Of a stretch of DNA of 53,982 nucleotides, positions 3,295 to 38,424 are shown piece by piece; position 1 is the first letter of the stretch; each line of letters starts with the position of its first letter. Origin of the DNA: Acidobacteriota bacterium (GTDB lineage: Bacteria > Acidobacteriota > Terriglobia > Terriglobales > Acidobacteriaceae); assembly GCA_003225495.1 (NCBI GenBank), contig QIAJ01000175.1, positions 1-53,982 of the forward strand, written 5' to 3'. The position numbers and the translations under genes were made by a program. Under the pieces are notes generated by a model. The model ran no database searches, was not told where the DNA came from, and worked only from the letters and a program-made list of their open reading frames with translations.

Positions 3295-5133
3295 CTAACG
3301 TGGCTGGTCAAGTCCGACCCGGTGGAGCAGGTCGGCAAAACGAGGATCGCCTCGCAGGGGATCGAAATAGGGATGTACTTTAAGGAATTGGAGAATATTT
3401 GATTTCTCCTGATAAGCCTTTTCCATCCAGATAAATGCCTGCTCCTTATCGTCAAGTCCCAGGTAAGCATTAATGAAGGCCGCTGCGGGGATATAACCCT
3501 TCGTTTGGCGCGTCTTCAATTCTTCGAGGAGACGAAGTGCATCAGCGCGCCGTCCGGCATGGGCATACGCTCGGATCAATACGCCGATAACGCCAGGACT
3601 ACGGTTCGAAAGCGAAACAGCCTTCTCCAGGATAGAGATTGCTTCTTCGGGCTGGCCATTAGCGATAAGGTCGAATCCAAGTCCCCAGAGGACCATGGCA
3701 TCGTCGGGTCGAACGGCCGCCTCGCTGCGCGACTCGCGGACGGCCTCGGCGAAGCGGTGGGCGTGGAACAGAACCTCGGCGATTTCAGTTCCGGAGACCG
3801 CAAGCGGGTCATGCTCGCGGGCTCGCTGAGCCCAACGGAGCGCCTCGTCCAAGCGCCCCTGACACATCAGCCATGCAGAGAATCCGGTTTGCGCAGTAGA
3901 GTCACCTGGATTCAATTCGAGGGCGCGTCTGAATTCAGTCTCGGCTGCGACCCACTTCCACTCTTTCTGCAGCATCAATGCCAGGAAGGCGTGTGCTTTG
4001 CCAAGTTCAGGATCAAGGTCCAAAGCTTTTCGCGCTGCACTAATAACCTTCGGTCGTGTTTCACTCGGCGGAGCGCCGAATAGAATCGTGCCGAGATTGT
4101 CATAGGCGGCTGCAAGGCCAACATAAGATGGTGCAAAAGTTGGGTCGCGCTTTATCGCATCCTCGTAGTAACTAATGCTTTTCTCGACGTCAGCTCTGGT
4201 GTTGCTCTTGTCCAACGTGAACTCGCCTTTGAGATAGCTCTCATAGACTTCAGGGGAGACGGAACGCGCAGCAGTGAGCCTTCCATGTTCTTCGCCGGTG
4301 ACCGTGACCTCGACTCTTCGAGCGATGGATTGCGCGATTTCACTTTCCAGTGTGAGGGCGTCTCGAAGTTCGTGGTCGTAGGTCTCGGACCAGAAATGCT
4401 CGTCGGTGGCGCCGCGAATCAACTGGGCCGTCACGCGAATCCTGCTACCATCCCGGATGACTGATCCTTCGACGAGGGCGTCGACGTGCAGCGCTCGGGC
4501 AATCTCCGGGAGGGATTGCGGCGAGTCCTTGAAGTGCATTGCAGACGTGCGCGATATGACGCGCAATTTGTGAATACTGGATAGGCGTCCGATGAGCGCC
4601 TCGGTCATTCCATCGGCGAGATATTCCTGGGTTGGATCGCCTGACAAGTTCTTCAGAGGCAACACTGCTAACGACGTGATTGTGGGCCGGGTCGCAACTG
4701 ACGCGGGCTGTCGTGTCGTCAGGTAAGCCACCGCTGCCAATGCGAGTACGACCACACCAGCCAGAACCAGCGGCCGAGCGGTTGCGGATATTCTCCCCGG
4801 TGCTCTCTCTGGTTTTAAATCGACGGCCTTCGTGGCTGGCACTTTTTCTTCCTCTTCGAGGTGTCTGCGGCCGCGAACCCAGGCATCGAGCTCTACGCTA
4901 AAGGCATAAACGGATCCGAGACGGTCATGCTGGTGGCGATGGACGGGCATCCCCTCGCGCTTCTCCCAGCGTTGAACCGTGGTCACATCGCGGCTCAAGT
5001 AGGCGGCGATTTCCTTCCACGAATCCAGTCGGCCTTCGGGCGGTCTCACCGGTGGAGGTGAAGCCCGTTCAATCGGGGACGGCAAAGCACGGTATTCGAC
5101 GGTACGTGGAGAAATGGCCGCAATTCCGCACAT
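3295..5133 (-). CDS. Membrane regulator: N-terminal HTH, one TM, FlgO-like domain, TPR repeats
   Basis: 612 residues from the ATG at 5133; the frame is open to 5250, but that extension would cover the neighbour's Shine-Dalgarno and start. Order: a helix-turn-helix at about 36-91 (SWKEIAAYLSRDVTTVQRWE, then a basic wing), a single membrane segment at about 121-138 (LVLAGVVVLALAAVAYL), a FlgO/adenylate-cyclase-associated-like domain at about 152-280 ('LAVLPLKNLSGDPTQEYLAD', 'VDALVEGSVIR'), then a long TPR array to the end. This one-protein layout resembles CadC-type membrane regulators and is expanded in Acidobacteriota. Inference: a DNA-binding cytoplasmic head senses a partner outside through the TPRs. 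The divergent secreted cupin gene is the natural candidate target. Ligand unknown. Confidence 0.85.
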   Translation of the reverse strand: MCGIAAISPRTVEYRALPSPIERASPPPVRPPEGRLDSWKEIAAYLSRDVTTVQRWEKREGMPVHRHQHDRLGSVYAFSVELDAWVRGRRHLEEEEKVPATKAVDLKPERAPGRISATARPLVLAGVVVLALAAVAYLTTRQPASVATRPTITSLAVLPLKNLSGDPTQEYLADGMTEALIGRLSSIHKLRVISRTSAMHFKDSPQSLPEIARALHVDALVEGSVIRDGSRIRVTAQLIRGATDEHFWSETYDHELRDALTLESEIAQSIARRVEVTVTGEEHGRLTAARSVSPEVYESYLKGEFTLDKSNTRADVEKSISYYEDAIKRDPTFAPSYVGLAAAYDNLGTILFGAPPSETRPKVISAARKALDLDPELGKAHAFLALMLQKEWKWVAAETEFRRALELNPGDSTAQTGFSAWLMCQGRLDEALRWAQRAREHDPLAVSGTEIAEVLFHAHRFAEAVRESRSEAAVRPDDAMVLWGLGFDLIANGQPEEAISILEKAVSLSNRSPGVIGVLIRAYAHAGRRADALRLLEELKTRQTKGYIPAAAFINAYLGLDDKEQAFIWMEKAYQEKSNILQFLKVHPYFDPLRGDPRFADLLHRVGLDQPR

Positions 5134-5224
5134 TGCCGTTTGACGGCGCCCACCAAAGTGTCCGATTGTGTCCGCACGTTTCCATTCCCCCGGGATGCGA
5201 ACGAGCAAATTCAGGAGGGTAGAC

Positions 5225-5764
5225 ATGCGACGAAAATTGGTGTGGTTCACGTTGAGCGCCGGGATGATGGTTACGGCTCTCTTTCATGCAACACCTGCTC
5301 TGGCAACCGACCCAGTCGGATTCACAAGTACAACGATCGCCAAGGGCCAGTTCGACGAATTCTCTGTCTTTAGCAAATTCATCCTGCCAGGCAACGCGCC
5401 GGATTGGGAAAAGAAGAATTTCTGGAAGTCACGGCAGAAGACGAAGGGACTGTCGGACGGATACGTCCTGACCAATGTTTGGCAGCCAGGAGGAACCACA
5501 GGTTGGCACACGCATCTCAGCCACACCCTGATCATTGTCACCGCAGGATCAGTGACACAATATCAAGGGCACGACCCTTCCTGCACACCCACCGTATACA
5601 CAGCGGGGATGACGTTTGTTGACTTGGGCGGCAATCACGTGCACATCGTCCGAAACGAAGGCACTGTCGAGGCACAAGTCATTGCTATCCGGCTCATTCC
5701 GGCGGGTCAGCCGGGCCGGATTGACGCTCCAGACCCGGGGAACTGCCATTTCCCACCGAATTGA
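5225..5764 (+). CDS. Secreted cupin-domain protein
   Basis: 179 residues. The ATG at 5225 is fixed by an excellent AGGAGG about 7 nt upstream; the in-frame ATG at 5168 lacks one. The signal peptide (MRRKLVWFTLSAGMMVTALF, cut after 'TPALA') sends it to the periplasm. The cupin barrel shows 'GGTTGWHTHLSHTLIIVTAGS' with two His of motif 1, and 'GMTFVDLGGNHVHIVRNEG' for motif 2, so a metal site is likely. Substrate unknown; single-domain exported cupins of this type are uncharacterised. It is divergent from the HTH/TPR regulator with 91 nt between starts. An 11-bp hairpin follows 6 nt after the stop. Confidence 0.8.
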   Translation: MRRKLVWFTLSAGMMVTALFHATPALATDPVGFTSTTIAKGQFDEFSVFSKFILPGNAPDWEKKNFWKSRQKTKGLSDGYVLTNVWQPGGTTGWHTHLSHTLIIVTAGSVTQYQGHDPSCTPTVYTAGMTFVDLGGNHVHIVRNEGTVEAQVIAIRLIPAGQPGRIDAPDPGNCHFPPN

Positions 5765-24657: not shown

Positions 24658-24699
24658 TTCTGAGATTCGTTTTTCGCTCTTTCTAAATTGGGTTCGCGC

Positions 24700-24882
24700 A
24701 TGATCGTGGACCGGCGCCATGCTGGTTCCATGAGGGAAGCGGGTGAAAATCCCGCGCTGCCGCGCAACTGTAAGCGAGGACACAGCGGACGTCCACTGGG
24801 AGTTGTGAAGATTCCCGGGAAGGACGGCCGCAGAAGATGGACTCAATCAAGTCCTTACTCGCAAGCCAGGAGACCGGCGTGA
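24700..24882 (+). promoter_or_regulatory. Cobalamin (B12) riboswitch
   Basis: The leader of the TonB receptor gene shows the conserved parts of the adenosylcobalamin aptamer in order: 'gctggttccatgagggaagc', 'gggtgaaaatcccgcgctgc', 'cgcgcaactgtaagcg', and the B12 box 'agccaggagaccggc' at 24864-24878. A small helix CCTTT (24898-24902) / AAAGG (24910-24914) then covers the Shine-Dalgarno AAGGAGG of the receptor gene. Known for the class: bound cobalamin favours the closed state and lowers expression. The layout predicts control of translation start rather than termination, since no U-tract hairpin is present. Confidence 0.92.
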
Positions 24883-24922
24883 ACCGTACCTGAAACCCCT
24901 TTCGCGTGTAAAGGAGGACGGA

Positions 24923-27142
24923 ATGATCCGCTCCCTGGTTGTTCGATGTGCAATTTCTCTTCTGCTGTTTGTGCCGGCATTCGCGGGCGAGCTTCAGGTC
25001 AAGGTTCTCGATCCACACTCCGCGGCTGTCGCCGGTGCGCAAGTGTCGCTGTTCCGGGTCGGTGAATCGGCTCCGCTGCAAGTCAGGACCACGTCTGGCG
25101 AAGGCCTCGCCATCTTCAGCGTCGATACTTCTGCACCCCTGAGCGTTGAGGTACTGGCTCCGGGATTTGCAGCGGCCCAGACAAATATCGAGGAATCGTC
25201 TTCGACGGCGATCGTCGCGCTACAGGTCGCTGGCGCATCTGAGACGGTTGTCGTCATCGCTACTCGCACGGCCGCTCCTGAACAACAGACCGCCAGCAGC
25301 GTATCGTTGCTGACCGGAGAACAAATTACCACCATGTTGCCGGTGGCATTCTCTGACGCTATCCGCTTTCTTCCGGGAGCGGTCGTGAATGTCAGCGGTC
25401 AGCGCGGCGGACTTGGATCTCTGTTCGTCCGTGGCGGCGACTCGCGCTACAACAAGGTCGTGATCGACGGAGTGCCGGTGAACGAACCGGGCGGCACATT
25501 TGATTTTGGGACCGTTCCACTCGTGGAAGCTGACCGCGTGGAATTTCAACGTGGCGCGCAGAGCACCTTGTATGGGTCCGATGCCATGACTAGCGTGGTC
25601 CAAGTGTTCTCCCGTAGTGGCGCTACCACTGTGCCGGAATTACGCTTCGGCGCCGACGGCGGCAATTTTGGAACTGCTCACGGATTCGCTTCCCTAGCCG
25701 GCGCCCGCTCACGGTTCGATTACAACGCCTTCGCAGATCAATTCCAAACCAATGGGCAAGGACCGAACGCCGAATACTGGAATGCTCTCCAGGGCGGAAA
25801 TGTTGGAGTGCAGATCAATCCGACAATCCTTTTTCGTGCGCATGCCAGGCATTCCAATAGACGCACGGGAGTGCCGGGAGAATGGAGTTTCAATGGCGAC
25901 CGAGTCCTTCCGCCCGACGAAGATCAACGTGCCCGCTCTGACAATTTTCTGGCAAGCGGTGAGTTGTTGGTTTCCGGGCCTTCCCGGTGGCAACACCGCC
26001 TGACAGGCTATGAGTACAACACGCAAAGGTTGAACCAGGACGATCTCCCCGATCCCGGCCGGCGCTGTCTCGACACTTTCATCGATTGCCCGTTCCTAAC
26101 TACTGCCCATATCAACCGCGCCGGTTTCATGTACCAGGGCGACTACACACCACGCAGTTGGGCACAGACCACCGTCGGCTACGAATTTGAAGACGAGAAT
26201 GGCCGATTCTTCACGCATTCACCGCCGCCCTTCGAATTCACCCAGACCATTCCCGGGCTCCGATTGAATCATGCTGCCTACGTACAGCAACGAATCACCT
26301 GGAAGCGCCTGTCGGCCATCGCGGGCGTCCGGTACGCTCACAACGAGACCTTCGGCGACAAAGCCGTGCCCCGCGTGGCACTGAGTCTGCTGGCTCTCAG
26401 GGGCGACAATTTTTTCTCAGGAACTAGGCTGCGGTTTTCCTATGCGACCGGGATTAAAGAGCCTCGTTTCGAAGAATCTTTCCCCAACGATGCGTTTACA
26501 AAACCGAACCCGGATCTCAAAGCGGAGCAGAGCCGCTCCTTCGAAACAGGACTCGAACAAAGTCTGCTGACTGGCAAGATTTCGCTGAGCGCGATCTACT
26601 ACAACAACCTTTTCCGCCGCCAGATCGACTTCAGTTGCTGCGACGAGCAGTTTCGCGGCCAGTACGTGAACGTTAACAGCTCCATGGCTCACGGTGCGGA
26701 AGTACAAGCTACGGGAAGATTCAGTTCGCGAGTCTCACTCACTGCCGCGTACACCTACACATCGACGCAAATTTTGGAGGCGCCGCTTTGTACGCTAGAG
26801 AATTTCTGCGATCCCTTCCTGGCCGCCGGTAATTCGCTGCGGCGGCGTCCGAGGCATTCGGGAAACCTGCTGCTGACGTACCTTGGATCGCGCTGGGGCG
26901 CCAATCTCGGCGCCAGCTTCGTCGGCCGCCGGCTCGATTCCGACTTCTTCGGCCTCGGATTCAATCACGCCGCCGGCTACGCTCGCGTCGATCTCGGCGG
27001 ATGGTATGCGATTAATTCGCGAATCACTGCCTACCTGGCCGTCGACAACGCGCTCAATGATCATTACAACGAAGTGGTGGGATACCCGGCACTCACAGCA
27101 AATTTCCGCGCTGGAATGAGATTCCGGATCGGTGGAGAGTAA
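24923..27142 (+). CDS. TonB-dependent outer membrane receptor, B12-regulated (BtuB-like)
   Basis: 739 residues. Signal peptide (MIRSLVVRCAISLLLFVPAF), then a carboxypeptidase-regulatory-like beta-sandwich (about 20-105, 'LQVKVLDPHSAAVAGAQVSL'), then a TonB-box-like 'ETVVVIATRT' at about 110, a plug domain ('FSDAIRFLPGAVVNVSGQRG', 'NKVVIDGVPVNEPGG', 'VEFQRGAQSTLYGSDAM') and a 22-strand barrel to the end. The start is fixed by AAGGAGG 5 nt before ATG. The upstream cobalamin riboswitch makes corrinoid uptake the likely role, as for BtuB. The partner genes btuCDF are not in this window. The extra N-terminal domain is typical of Acidobacteriota and Bacteroidota receptors. Confidence 0.92.
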   Translation: MIRSLVVRCAISLLLFVPAFAGELQVKVLDPHSAAVAGAQVSLFRVGESAPLQVRTTSGEGLAIFSVDTSAPLSVEVLAPGFAAAQTNIEESSSTAIVALQVAGASETVVVIATRTAAPEQQTASSVSLLTGEQITTMLPVAFSDAIRFLPGAVVNVSGQRGGLGSLFVRGGDSRYNKVVIDGVPVNEPGGTFDFGTVPLVEADRVEFQRGAQSTLYGSDAMTSVVQVFSRSGATTVPELRFGADGGNFGTAHGFASLAGARSRFDYNAFADQFQTNGQGPNAEYWNALQGGNVGVQINPTILFRAHARHSNRRTGVPGEWSFNGDRVLPPDEDQRARSDNFLASGELLVSGPSRWQHRLTGYEYNTQRLNQDDLPDPGRRCLDTFIDCPFLTTAHINRAGFMYQGDYTPRSWAQTTVGYEFEDENGRFFTHSPPPFEFTQTIPGLRLNHAAYVQQRITWKRLSAIAGVRYAHNETFGDKAVPRVALSLLALRGDNFFSGTRLRFSYATGIKEPRFEESFPNDAFTKPNPDLKAEQSRSFETGLEQSLLTGKISLSAIYYNNLFRRQIDFSCCDEQFRGQYVNVNSSMAHGAEVQATGRFSSRVSLTAAYTYTSTQILEAPLCTLENFCDPFLAAGNSLRRRPRHSGNLLLTYLGSRWGANLGASFVGRRLDSDFFGLGFNHAAGYARVDLGGWYAINSRITAYLAVDNALNDHYNEVVGYPALTANFRAGMRFRIGGE

Positions 27143-37347: not shown

Positions 37348-38424
37348 GTGCCAGAAACCAAACCATTCCGTCTGACGGAGTCCGTTAAAGCTGCGGGTTG
37401 AGCGTCCAAGCTGAGTCCGGCGGCGCTGGACACAGTGCTTGGGAAATTAGCCCGGCAACAGGACCCCAACGTGCTAGTCGGCTTCGATCATGCCGACGAC
37501 GCCGGCGTGTATCAACTCACGCCCGAGCAGGCGCTCGTCCAGACGGTGGACTTCTTCACGCCCATCGTCGACGATCCCTACACTTTCGGTCAGATCGCCG
37601 CGACTAACGCGCTGAGCGATGTTTACGCCATGGGCGGCCGCCCGCTTACATCGCTCGCACTCGTCTGCTTTCCCGAAAAAGGCGATCTTGAAATTCTGGA
37701 GAGAATTCTCGCGGGCGGGCTTTCGAAAATGATGGAGGCCGGATGCACAGTAATCGGCGGGCACAGTATTCGCGATGACGAAACCAAGTTCGGATACTCA
37801 GTCACGGGTGTGGTCCATCCCAAAAAAGTCCTGGCCAATCACGGCGCTAGGCCTGGGGACGCACTTATCTTCACGAAAGCACTCGGCACCGGCGTGATCT
37901 CAACTGCCATCAAGAAAGGAGTAGCCGAGCAGGAGTGGATCGACGCGGCGGTACGCTCCATGACGACGCTCAACAAAACCGCGGCCGAGCTCATAGCACG
38001 CGCGAACGACCAACGACGAACGACCAACGACAAGTCTCCGATTCATGCTCTCACCGACATCACCGGCTTCGGCCTGATCGGCCATGCCCGGGAAATGGCC
38101 TTGGCCAGCAATGTCTCGTTGCGATTGTTCTCAAGCAATCTCGCCATTCTGCCCGGTGCCCTGGAATGTGTTCGCGCCGGCCACATTCCCGGCGGCCTGA
38201 ATGCCAATCGCGAATTTGCCGAGTGCCTGGTGAGCTATGAAGCGGAAATTGCCGAGGATCTCAAGACTCTTCTGTTCGATCCGCAGACCGCTGGCGGGCT
38301 ATTCATTTCGATCGCCCCAAACGATTGCGAAAAACTTGTCCTCGATCTGAATGAACAGGGAATCCCCGCACTCAAAATCGGCGACGTAGCGGAAGCCATC
38401 AAGCCCCTAATACGGGTGATGTAG
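37348..38424 (+). CDS. selD: Selenide, water dikinase SelD, itself a selenoprotein (UGA = Sec18)
   Basis: 358 residues if UGA at 37399-37401 is read as selenocysteine. From GTG 37348 the frame gives 'VPETKPFRLTESVKAAGUAS' then 'KLSPAAL': the SelD motif AAG(C/U)xxK with Sec18 and Lys21. Downstream motifs agree: 'VGFDHADDAGVYQLTPEQAL', 'TNALSDVYAMGGRPLTSLAL', 'GGHSIRDDETKFGYSVTG' and 'LTDITGFGLIGHAREMALAS'. A stem-loop starts 5 nt after UGA. It makes selenophosphate for Sec and selenouridine synthesis. Any call that treats UGA as stop would begin at 37435 and lose the catalytic loop. A 10-residue insert (NDQRRTTNDK) is coded by a heptamer array. selA, selB and selC are not here. Confidence 0.93.
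37406..37442 (+). promoter_or_regulatory. Bacterial SECIS-like element in selD
   Basis: CCAAGC (37406-37411) pairs with GCTTGG (37437-37442), and GTCC (37415-37418) with GGAC (37428-37431). The apical loop GGCGGCGCT begins with GG, 18 nt after the UGA. The distance and GG in the loop fit SelB-binding hairpins of bacterial selenoprotein mRNAs. Confidence 0.75.
38004..38031. repeat. Heptamer array NNNCGAC inside selD (4 units)
   Basis: GAACGAC, CAACGAC, GAACGAC, CAACGAC in tandem. It encodes part of an insert, NDQRRTTNDK, between 'TAAELIARA' and 'SPIHALTDITGFG', where most SelD proteins have a short loop. Confidence 0.75.

Follow-up and report, generated by a model that had tools for sequence, protein, structure and literature searches.

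Selenophosphate synthetase (SelD) with selenocysteine (Sec) at its catalytic position is a common, published bacterial selenoprotein, and the gene described here adds a member to this class. Criteria for the bacterial signal (bSECIS) are given in the accessible text of PMC13188914 as a loop of 3–9 nt with G in its first two positions, an upper stem of 4–16 bp, a spacing of 16–37 nt and an energy of −7.5 or lower. In the E. coli fdhF model, as set out in the available part of PMC4513850, SelB with Sec-tRNA binds the SECIS early and keeps RF2 off the UGA. PMC4561486, accessible in part, refers to a supplement with the bacterial SECIS found in Sec-containing SelD; that supplement may depict some of the extended structure reported below. 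For Acidobacteria, the accessible portion of Zhang 2006 (PMC1794560) records three selenoprotein families with four proteins and notes that the selenouridine trait is absent, and excerpts of the deep-Sep report of 2025 credit the genome of Occallatibacter riparius (Acidobacteriota) with three selenoprotein genes. These sources already cover Sec-SelD, bSECIS and the use of Sec in Acidobacteria; the part for which we found no description in the accessible literature on Sec-SelD and bacterial SECIS is an extended, family-specific block of constrained RNA.

The selD gene and its in-frame UGA

The window, the whole 53,982-nt stretch of DNA analysed, carries selD on its forward strand at 37348–38424. 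A single frame runs from a GTG (37348–37350) across an in-frame UGA (37399–37401, +) to a stop at 38422–38424, encoding 358 residues with Sec predicted at residue 18. The product is a selenide, water dikinase (selenophosphate synthetase), and from its family membership it is predicted to make selenophosphate. With the UGA read as Sec, the translation scores 365.6 bits against the selD profile TIGR00476 (curated cut-off 125 bits) and covers profile positions 1–309 of 311, compared with 340.1 bits for the ORF from 37435; the start of the match moves from profile position 31 to position 1. In phmmer alignments, in which U is treated as C, U18 and K21, the latter being the lysine three residues after the catalytic Cys/Sec, align to the active-site cysteine and lysine (C-x-x-K) of the solved chains 3u0o and 2yye, which we take to be the SelD of E. 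coli and Aquifex.

A caller blind to Sec reports an ORF of 329 residues at 37435–38424 (+) without residue 18 or the catalytic motif, and such callers lose the selD active site in this acidobacterial family. The sequence-only reading of this DNA, made before the present analysis, had described one frame from GTG 37348 across the UGA into SelD, a UGA within the catalytic motif, and ordinary gene calling that starts at 37435 and drops the active site; all of this agrees with what we find, including the coordinates and the frame to 38424. At the GTG start, relatives alternate between Met and Val, with ATG at this codon (−17, numbered from the UGA) in 40 of 68, which supports a start at this position. 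Codons −10 to −1 are translated, since they are conserved as protein while the third positions of codons −10 to −5 vary.

A short direct repeat of the CGAACGACCAACGA type was seen by eye inside selD at about 38002–38032, where it encodes ANDQRRTTND; the length of the selD matches differs among relatives. Elsewhere in the window, a cobalamin riboswitch (24679–24896, +; 85 bits) lies upstream of a 739-aa ORF at 24923, and no tRNA was found within the 53,982 nt.

Selenocysteine machinery and other UGA genes in the genome

The assembly (4,544,596 bases in 261 contigs, 91.6% complete, 2.57% contaminated) carries selA, selB, selC and selD on four different contigs, and thus the Sec-decoding trait. 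The tRNA-Sec (selC, anticodon tca) on contig C60 scores 65.9 bits, above the cut-off, and is called tRNA-SeC by ARAGORN; SelB on C252 scores 365.9 bits (cut-off 242.25), SelA on C27 scores 541.9 bits (cut-off 267.9), and selD itself lies on C160. The sequence-only reading had named a lack of selB or selC as what would overturn its proposal, and both are present, together with selA, which supports its view that the organism makes selenocysteine. Among the matches listed, the genome has one SelD at E ≤ 1e-40, and no Cys-SelD backup was seen in the 91.6% complete assembly. One SelD among those matches, with its active site predicted to contain Sec, would make Sec synthesis dependent on earlier Sec synthesis, consistent with the earlier suggestion that SelD depends on its own product.

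Six further genes in the same genome carry a single in-frame UGA: one of four matches to PF00384 and five of 14 matches to PF00578. Five of them (L206, L208, L212, L213 and L205) are of peroxiredoxin type in four cases and of formate dehydrogenase-N type in one; the sixth is a deiodinase-like gene on the reverse strand of contig C17 (L218:473-904), which matches PF00837 at 84.7 bits and, as a partial stretch, NF038285 at 165 bits, below the cut-off of 250. The UGA contexts are RV-U-HGP (formate dehydrogenase-N type), TPG-U-T, TGG-U-T, YW-U-PAC, TPT-U-A and YT-U-PPF (deiodinase-like), positions that are presumably the redox positions of their families. A candidate hairpin is predicted after each UGA, with energies of −9.5 to −18.6 kcal/mol in 51 nt (−13.3 kcal/mol in the deiodinase-like gene). 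The sequence-only reading had proposed selD as a selenoprotein gene, which the present analysis supports; the other UGA genes were absent from it. As these six lie at redox-looking sites, SelD is very probably not the sole client of Sec decoding in this genome. Several redox-type genes with a UGA, one of them deiodinase-like, come together in a genome that appears to belong to a soil acidobacterium.

In a codon-score scan of the window and 18 loci of the same genome, selD ranked sixth among 51 sites kept from 463 UGA sites; on visual inspection the remaining read-through ORFs looked like frame shadows or chance occurrences, which is weak evidence that further ones are absent. On contig C193, a formate dehydrogenase-like frame (L157) carries a Cys within TRLCHASSV, upstream of which the frame seems to be broken.

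UGA and Cys codons at the site in relatives

In the named collection, the SelD sequences closest to this one come from Acidobacteriota metagenome-assembled genomes (Terriglobia, Acidobacteriaceae). Among 80 named loci the site codon is UGA in 70, Cys in nine and truncated in one. The alignment itself gave 69 TGA, nine Cys and two loci with no aligned residue, of which L057 was counted as TGA by eye (TGA, then Ns) and L092 is truncated and unreadable. A Cys codon is also found in G028, of the same genus. The earlier reading had stated that some SelD proteins use Sec at this place, a point already published and echoed by the UGA/Cys alternation seen here. It had also proposed that close relatives with Cys, together with a UGA arising by sequencing error, would overturn it: such Cys relatives exist (9 of 80, and G028), and the error is not borne out, since most relatives share the UGA.

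Across 150 genomes of the family, 72 have a SelD match labelled as containing one TGA and 15 have a stop-free Cys-SelD covering the site (counts transcribed by hand). For 38 of the 72, the site codon itself was read (29 in L099–L128, four in L144–L147 and five in L160–L164), and TGC or TGT was read in 15 of the 15 Cys-SelD genomes; only UGA or Cys codons were read in relatives. SelB lies above its cut-off in 85–86 of the 150 genomes, including 65 of the 72 with UGA-SelD and 13 of the 15 with Cys-SelD. The seven UGA-SelD genomes without it (G029, G037, G057, G071, G077, G092 and G125) are 53–99% complete, and seven others have SelB and no readable SelD match (G007, G063, G076, G105, G107, G118 and G145); these mismatches may be assembly gaps or real. 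YbbB, the mark of the selenouridine trait, is above the TIGR03167 cut-off in none of the 150 family genomes, and the best match in the selD genome reaches 20.8 bits across 24 positions. One genome, G048, has both a UGA-SelD (C106, L116) and a Cys-SelD (C113, L129). Its C113 match, labelled as containing one TAA, was considered as a case of TAA-coded Sec and set aside: the TAA lies ahead of the probable start, and TGC stands at the site.

In a search across the phylum, SelD was found at E ≤ 1e-40 in 196 of 297 genomes, and the best matches among those listed (L160–L186) carry TGA in 27 of 27. Four of these loci (L165–L168) keep the upper hairpin alone. In other Acidobacteriota families (L169–L186), single minimum-energy folds of 48 nt from the UGA place the strongest predicted hairpin about 27–30 nt after the UGA in 12 of 18, at the UGA in five and at 15 nt in one; as the 12 lie at about 27–30 nt and not at 13, the signal may have moved within selD.

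A predicted hairpin after the UGA within a nearly frozen block

Both the consensus fold and the fold of the window give a SECIS hairpin at 37407–37441 (+), with a lower stem of 5 bp (37407–37411/37437–37441), an upper stem of 7 bp (37415–37421/37425–37431) and a GGC triloop (37422–37424). The two-part stem with GG in its loop had been described before; its distance of 18 nt from the UGA had not been placed correctly, as the upper stem starts 13 nt and the loop 20 nt downstream. Applied by hand, the bSECIS criteria are satisfied by the GGC triloop, the 7-bp upper stem, the spacing of 20 nt and a predicted energy of −20.6 kcal/mol (37399–37443). Dinucleotide shuffles of four overlapping stretches give modest z-scores of −1.3 to −2.4. 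When the shuffles preserve the encoded protein, the stretch from the UGA to codon +14 reaches z −3.3, with none of 300 shuffles as stable, and codons −2 to +19 reach z −3.0, with 1 of 300.

The earlier reading took the post-UGA hairpin as the signal; that hairpin stands, and the constraint on the RNA extends beyond it, over codons −1 to +19. In this 63-nt block (37396–37458, +), synonymous sites are nearly frozen in the UGA-type selD of the family. We compared 132 loci (131 usable), which after removal of 25 duplicates left 87 distinct UGA and 19 distinct Cys sequences. Mean synonymous entropy within the block is 0.23 bits in the UGA set (19 codons) versus 1.47 bits in the Cys set (16 codons), against 1.28 versus 1.67 bits upstream and 1.00 versus 1.28 bits downstream (codons +20 to +60); these means omit codons whose commonest residue falls below half, and part of the gap between the sets may be divergence, as they are unequal in size and relatedness. 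Folding against synonymous shuffles gives a mean z of −3.1 for the 87 UGA sequences versus −0.5 for the 19 Cys sequences. Codon −1 is a single Gly codon in 87 of 87 UGA sequences (GGT in 68 of 68), codon 18 a single Arg codon in 86 of 86 (CGG in 67 of 67), and the third position of Leu 16 is A in 85 of 87. The 63-nt block is under RNA-level constraint that is tied to the UGA.

In the UGA genes, the block is predicted to fold as one long interrupted hairpin whose outer helix contains the UGA, so that the signal of this family would be an extended one. Folding predictions place the 5′ arm, including the UGA, at 37390–37401 (+) and the 3′ arm, UUAGCCCGGC, at 37447–37456 (+), the latter predicted without covariation; the helix would involve the UGA and UUAGCCCGG. 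In 85 of the 87 distinct sequences, all three UGA bases are predicted to be paired at P > 0.5. Where third positions do vary, most are unpaired (codons 1, 4, 11 and 19) or leave the pair intact (codon 6, G-U to A-U). Some observations speak against the fold: an A at codon 3 (3 of 87) and a G at codon 2 (2 of 87) break lower-stem pairs, and codons 14 and 15 (GGG, AAA) are frozen while unpaired in the prediction. Ala codons end in G at −2 in 74 of 87 and at −3 in 11 of 87 (Fisher p 4e-23, the sequences not being independent); that outer pair is therefore missing in 13 of 87. Two-sided change occurs in one of 22 pairs (covariation term +0.26), and no covariation for the outer helix was found among selD relatives, so that support of this kind is nearly nil, because the pairs and columns hardly vary. 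The more distant Acidobacteriota loci (L169–L186), from which such variation had been hoped for, mostly have their strongest predicted hairpin elsewhere.

A covariance model of the block finds one strong site, always the UGA of selD, in 10 of 11 genomes of the genus, and no site in the eleventh (G433). The runner-up (E 0.02) does not translate into SelD, and nothing else convincing appeared among the best 150 of 3313–5509 candidates scored per genome, a depth at which absence of the block elsewhere is incompletely covered.

Natural replacements of the UGA by Cys were found at several stages of decay. L023 has GGG TGT at the site, retains the consensus codons +2 to +19 and folds with z −2.5; in L049 and L055 the Cys-type block is partly decayed (z −0.4 and −1.5). 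The Cys codons lie at L023:2965, where the block is nearly intact, and at L055:2965, where it is partly decayed. This gradation fits relaxation after loss of the UGA. SelB is kept in the genomes of L023 and L055; that of L049 is uninformative, since not even ordinary elongation factors matched in it. The accessible part of Zhang 2006 (PMC1794560) likewise reports that Sec gave way to Cys three times in SelD, and that remnants of SECIS-like structures persist in FdhA and a HesB-like protein. Together, the UGA-tied constraint and the replacements make the difference between a minimal and a full recoding signal testable.

Alternative explanations

We consider it very likely that this selD encodes a Sec-containing selenophosphate synthetase in which SelB, acting on the hairpin after the UGA, would place Sec at residue 18. 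If the UGA were instead an assembly or sequencing error, or selD a pseudogene with the real protein starting at GTG 37435, the mechanical ORF that begins there would be explained. However, the same codon in 70 of 80 named loci makes a sequencing error very unlikely, the protein-like conservation of codons −10 to −1 with varying third positions at −10 to −5 argues against a non-coding upstream part, and the site holds only UGA or Cys wherever it was read, the TAA of G048 being upstream of the likely start; we give this explanation practically no weight. The UGA could also be read mainly by a tRNA other than tRNA-Sec, the RNA serving as a general readthrough element as in the hymenopteran SPS1-UGA genes of PMC4561486, whose elements, according to the accessible text, overlap the UGA just as the predicted structure does in 85 of 87 sequences here. 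Such decoding seems highly improbable in a genome with complete Sec machinery and other UGA genes, in a family where SelB accompanies UGA-SelD in 65 of 72 genomes, and for a hairpin that satisfies the bSECIS criteria.

The frozen block might owe its conservation to a cause unrelated to recoding, either a feature that overlaps it or runs antisense to it, or gene exchange in the recent past, and the freezing of the unpaired codons +14 and +15 would suit such a cause. It is harder to reconcile with a block that spans codon −1 to about +19 between varying flanks, was lost in the Cys versions and decays by degrees in L023, L049 and L055 as expected after loss of the UGA, so we regard it as improbable, if somewhat less so than non-Sec readthrough. 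That the Sec trait might exist here only to make SelD was suspected from the Cys in the formate dehydrogenase-like frame on C193. The lack of YbbB in all 150 family genomes points the same way, and Zhang 2006 (PMC1794560, accessible part) discusses SelD as the single selenoprotein of some YbbB-containing species. The idea was dropped given the six UGA genes among the PF00384 (one of four) and PF00578 (five of 14) matches of this genome, and has very little left to recommend it. A further possibility is that the block with its UGA-pairing helix is more than a longer SECIS, namely a separate element of this family, specific to SelD, that serves recoding or regulation: among the candidates scored, the covariance model marks only selD convincingly, although the same genome carries other UGA genes. 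We think this unlikely, though not as remote as the alternatives above; if true, the block could, for example, adjust how much SelD is made to the Sec supply, within a loop that depends on itself.

Proposed mechanism and comparison with known systems

Returning to Sec insertion by SelB, and starting from the computed frame, UGA position, machinery and conservation, we propose that SelA would make Sec-tRNA-Sec from selenophosphate and that SelB, carrying it, would bind the hairpin at 37407–37441 after the UGA and place Sec at catalytic residue 18. SelD would in turn make selenophosphate for further Sec, putting selD in a self-sustaining loop. The 63-nt stretch is under selection at the level of its RNA sequence, and the predicted outer helix would most likely keep the signal folded and aid early recruitment of SelB before the ribosome reaches the UGA. 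Here we infer by analogy that the early-binding model of E. coli fdhF may carry over to this selD. The lower SECIS is unwound on arrival of the ribosome in that model (PMC4513850, accessible part), so the outer helix would have room to act only ahead of a ribosome or in the gap between two, presumably in refolding or in early recruitment.

The protein of this locus resembles the Sec-containing SelD/SPS2 of bacteria (TIGR00476) in family, catalytic position and UGA/Cys alternation and, as far as the accessible descriptions go, shows no noted difference from them, whereas the RNA signal of the acidobacterial family is longer and frozen. Compared with the bSECIS consensus in the available text of PMC13188914, the constraint here covers codon −1 to about +19, and the outer helix predicted for it takes in the UGA. 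The SRE/HRE elements of eukaryotic SPS genes, in the accessible part of PMC4561486, are likewise stem-loops at the UGA of an SPS/SelD-family gene. Unlike these, the element here is predicted to be one long interrupted hairpin with the UGA in its basal helix.
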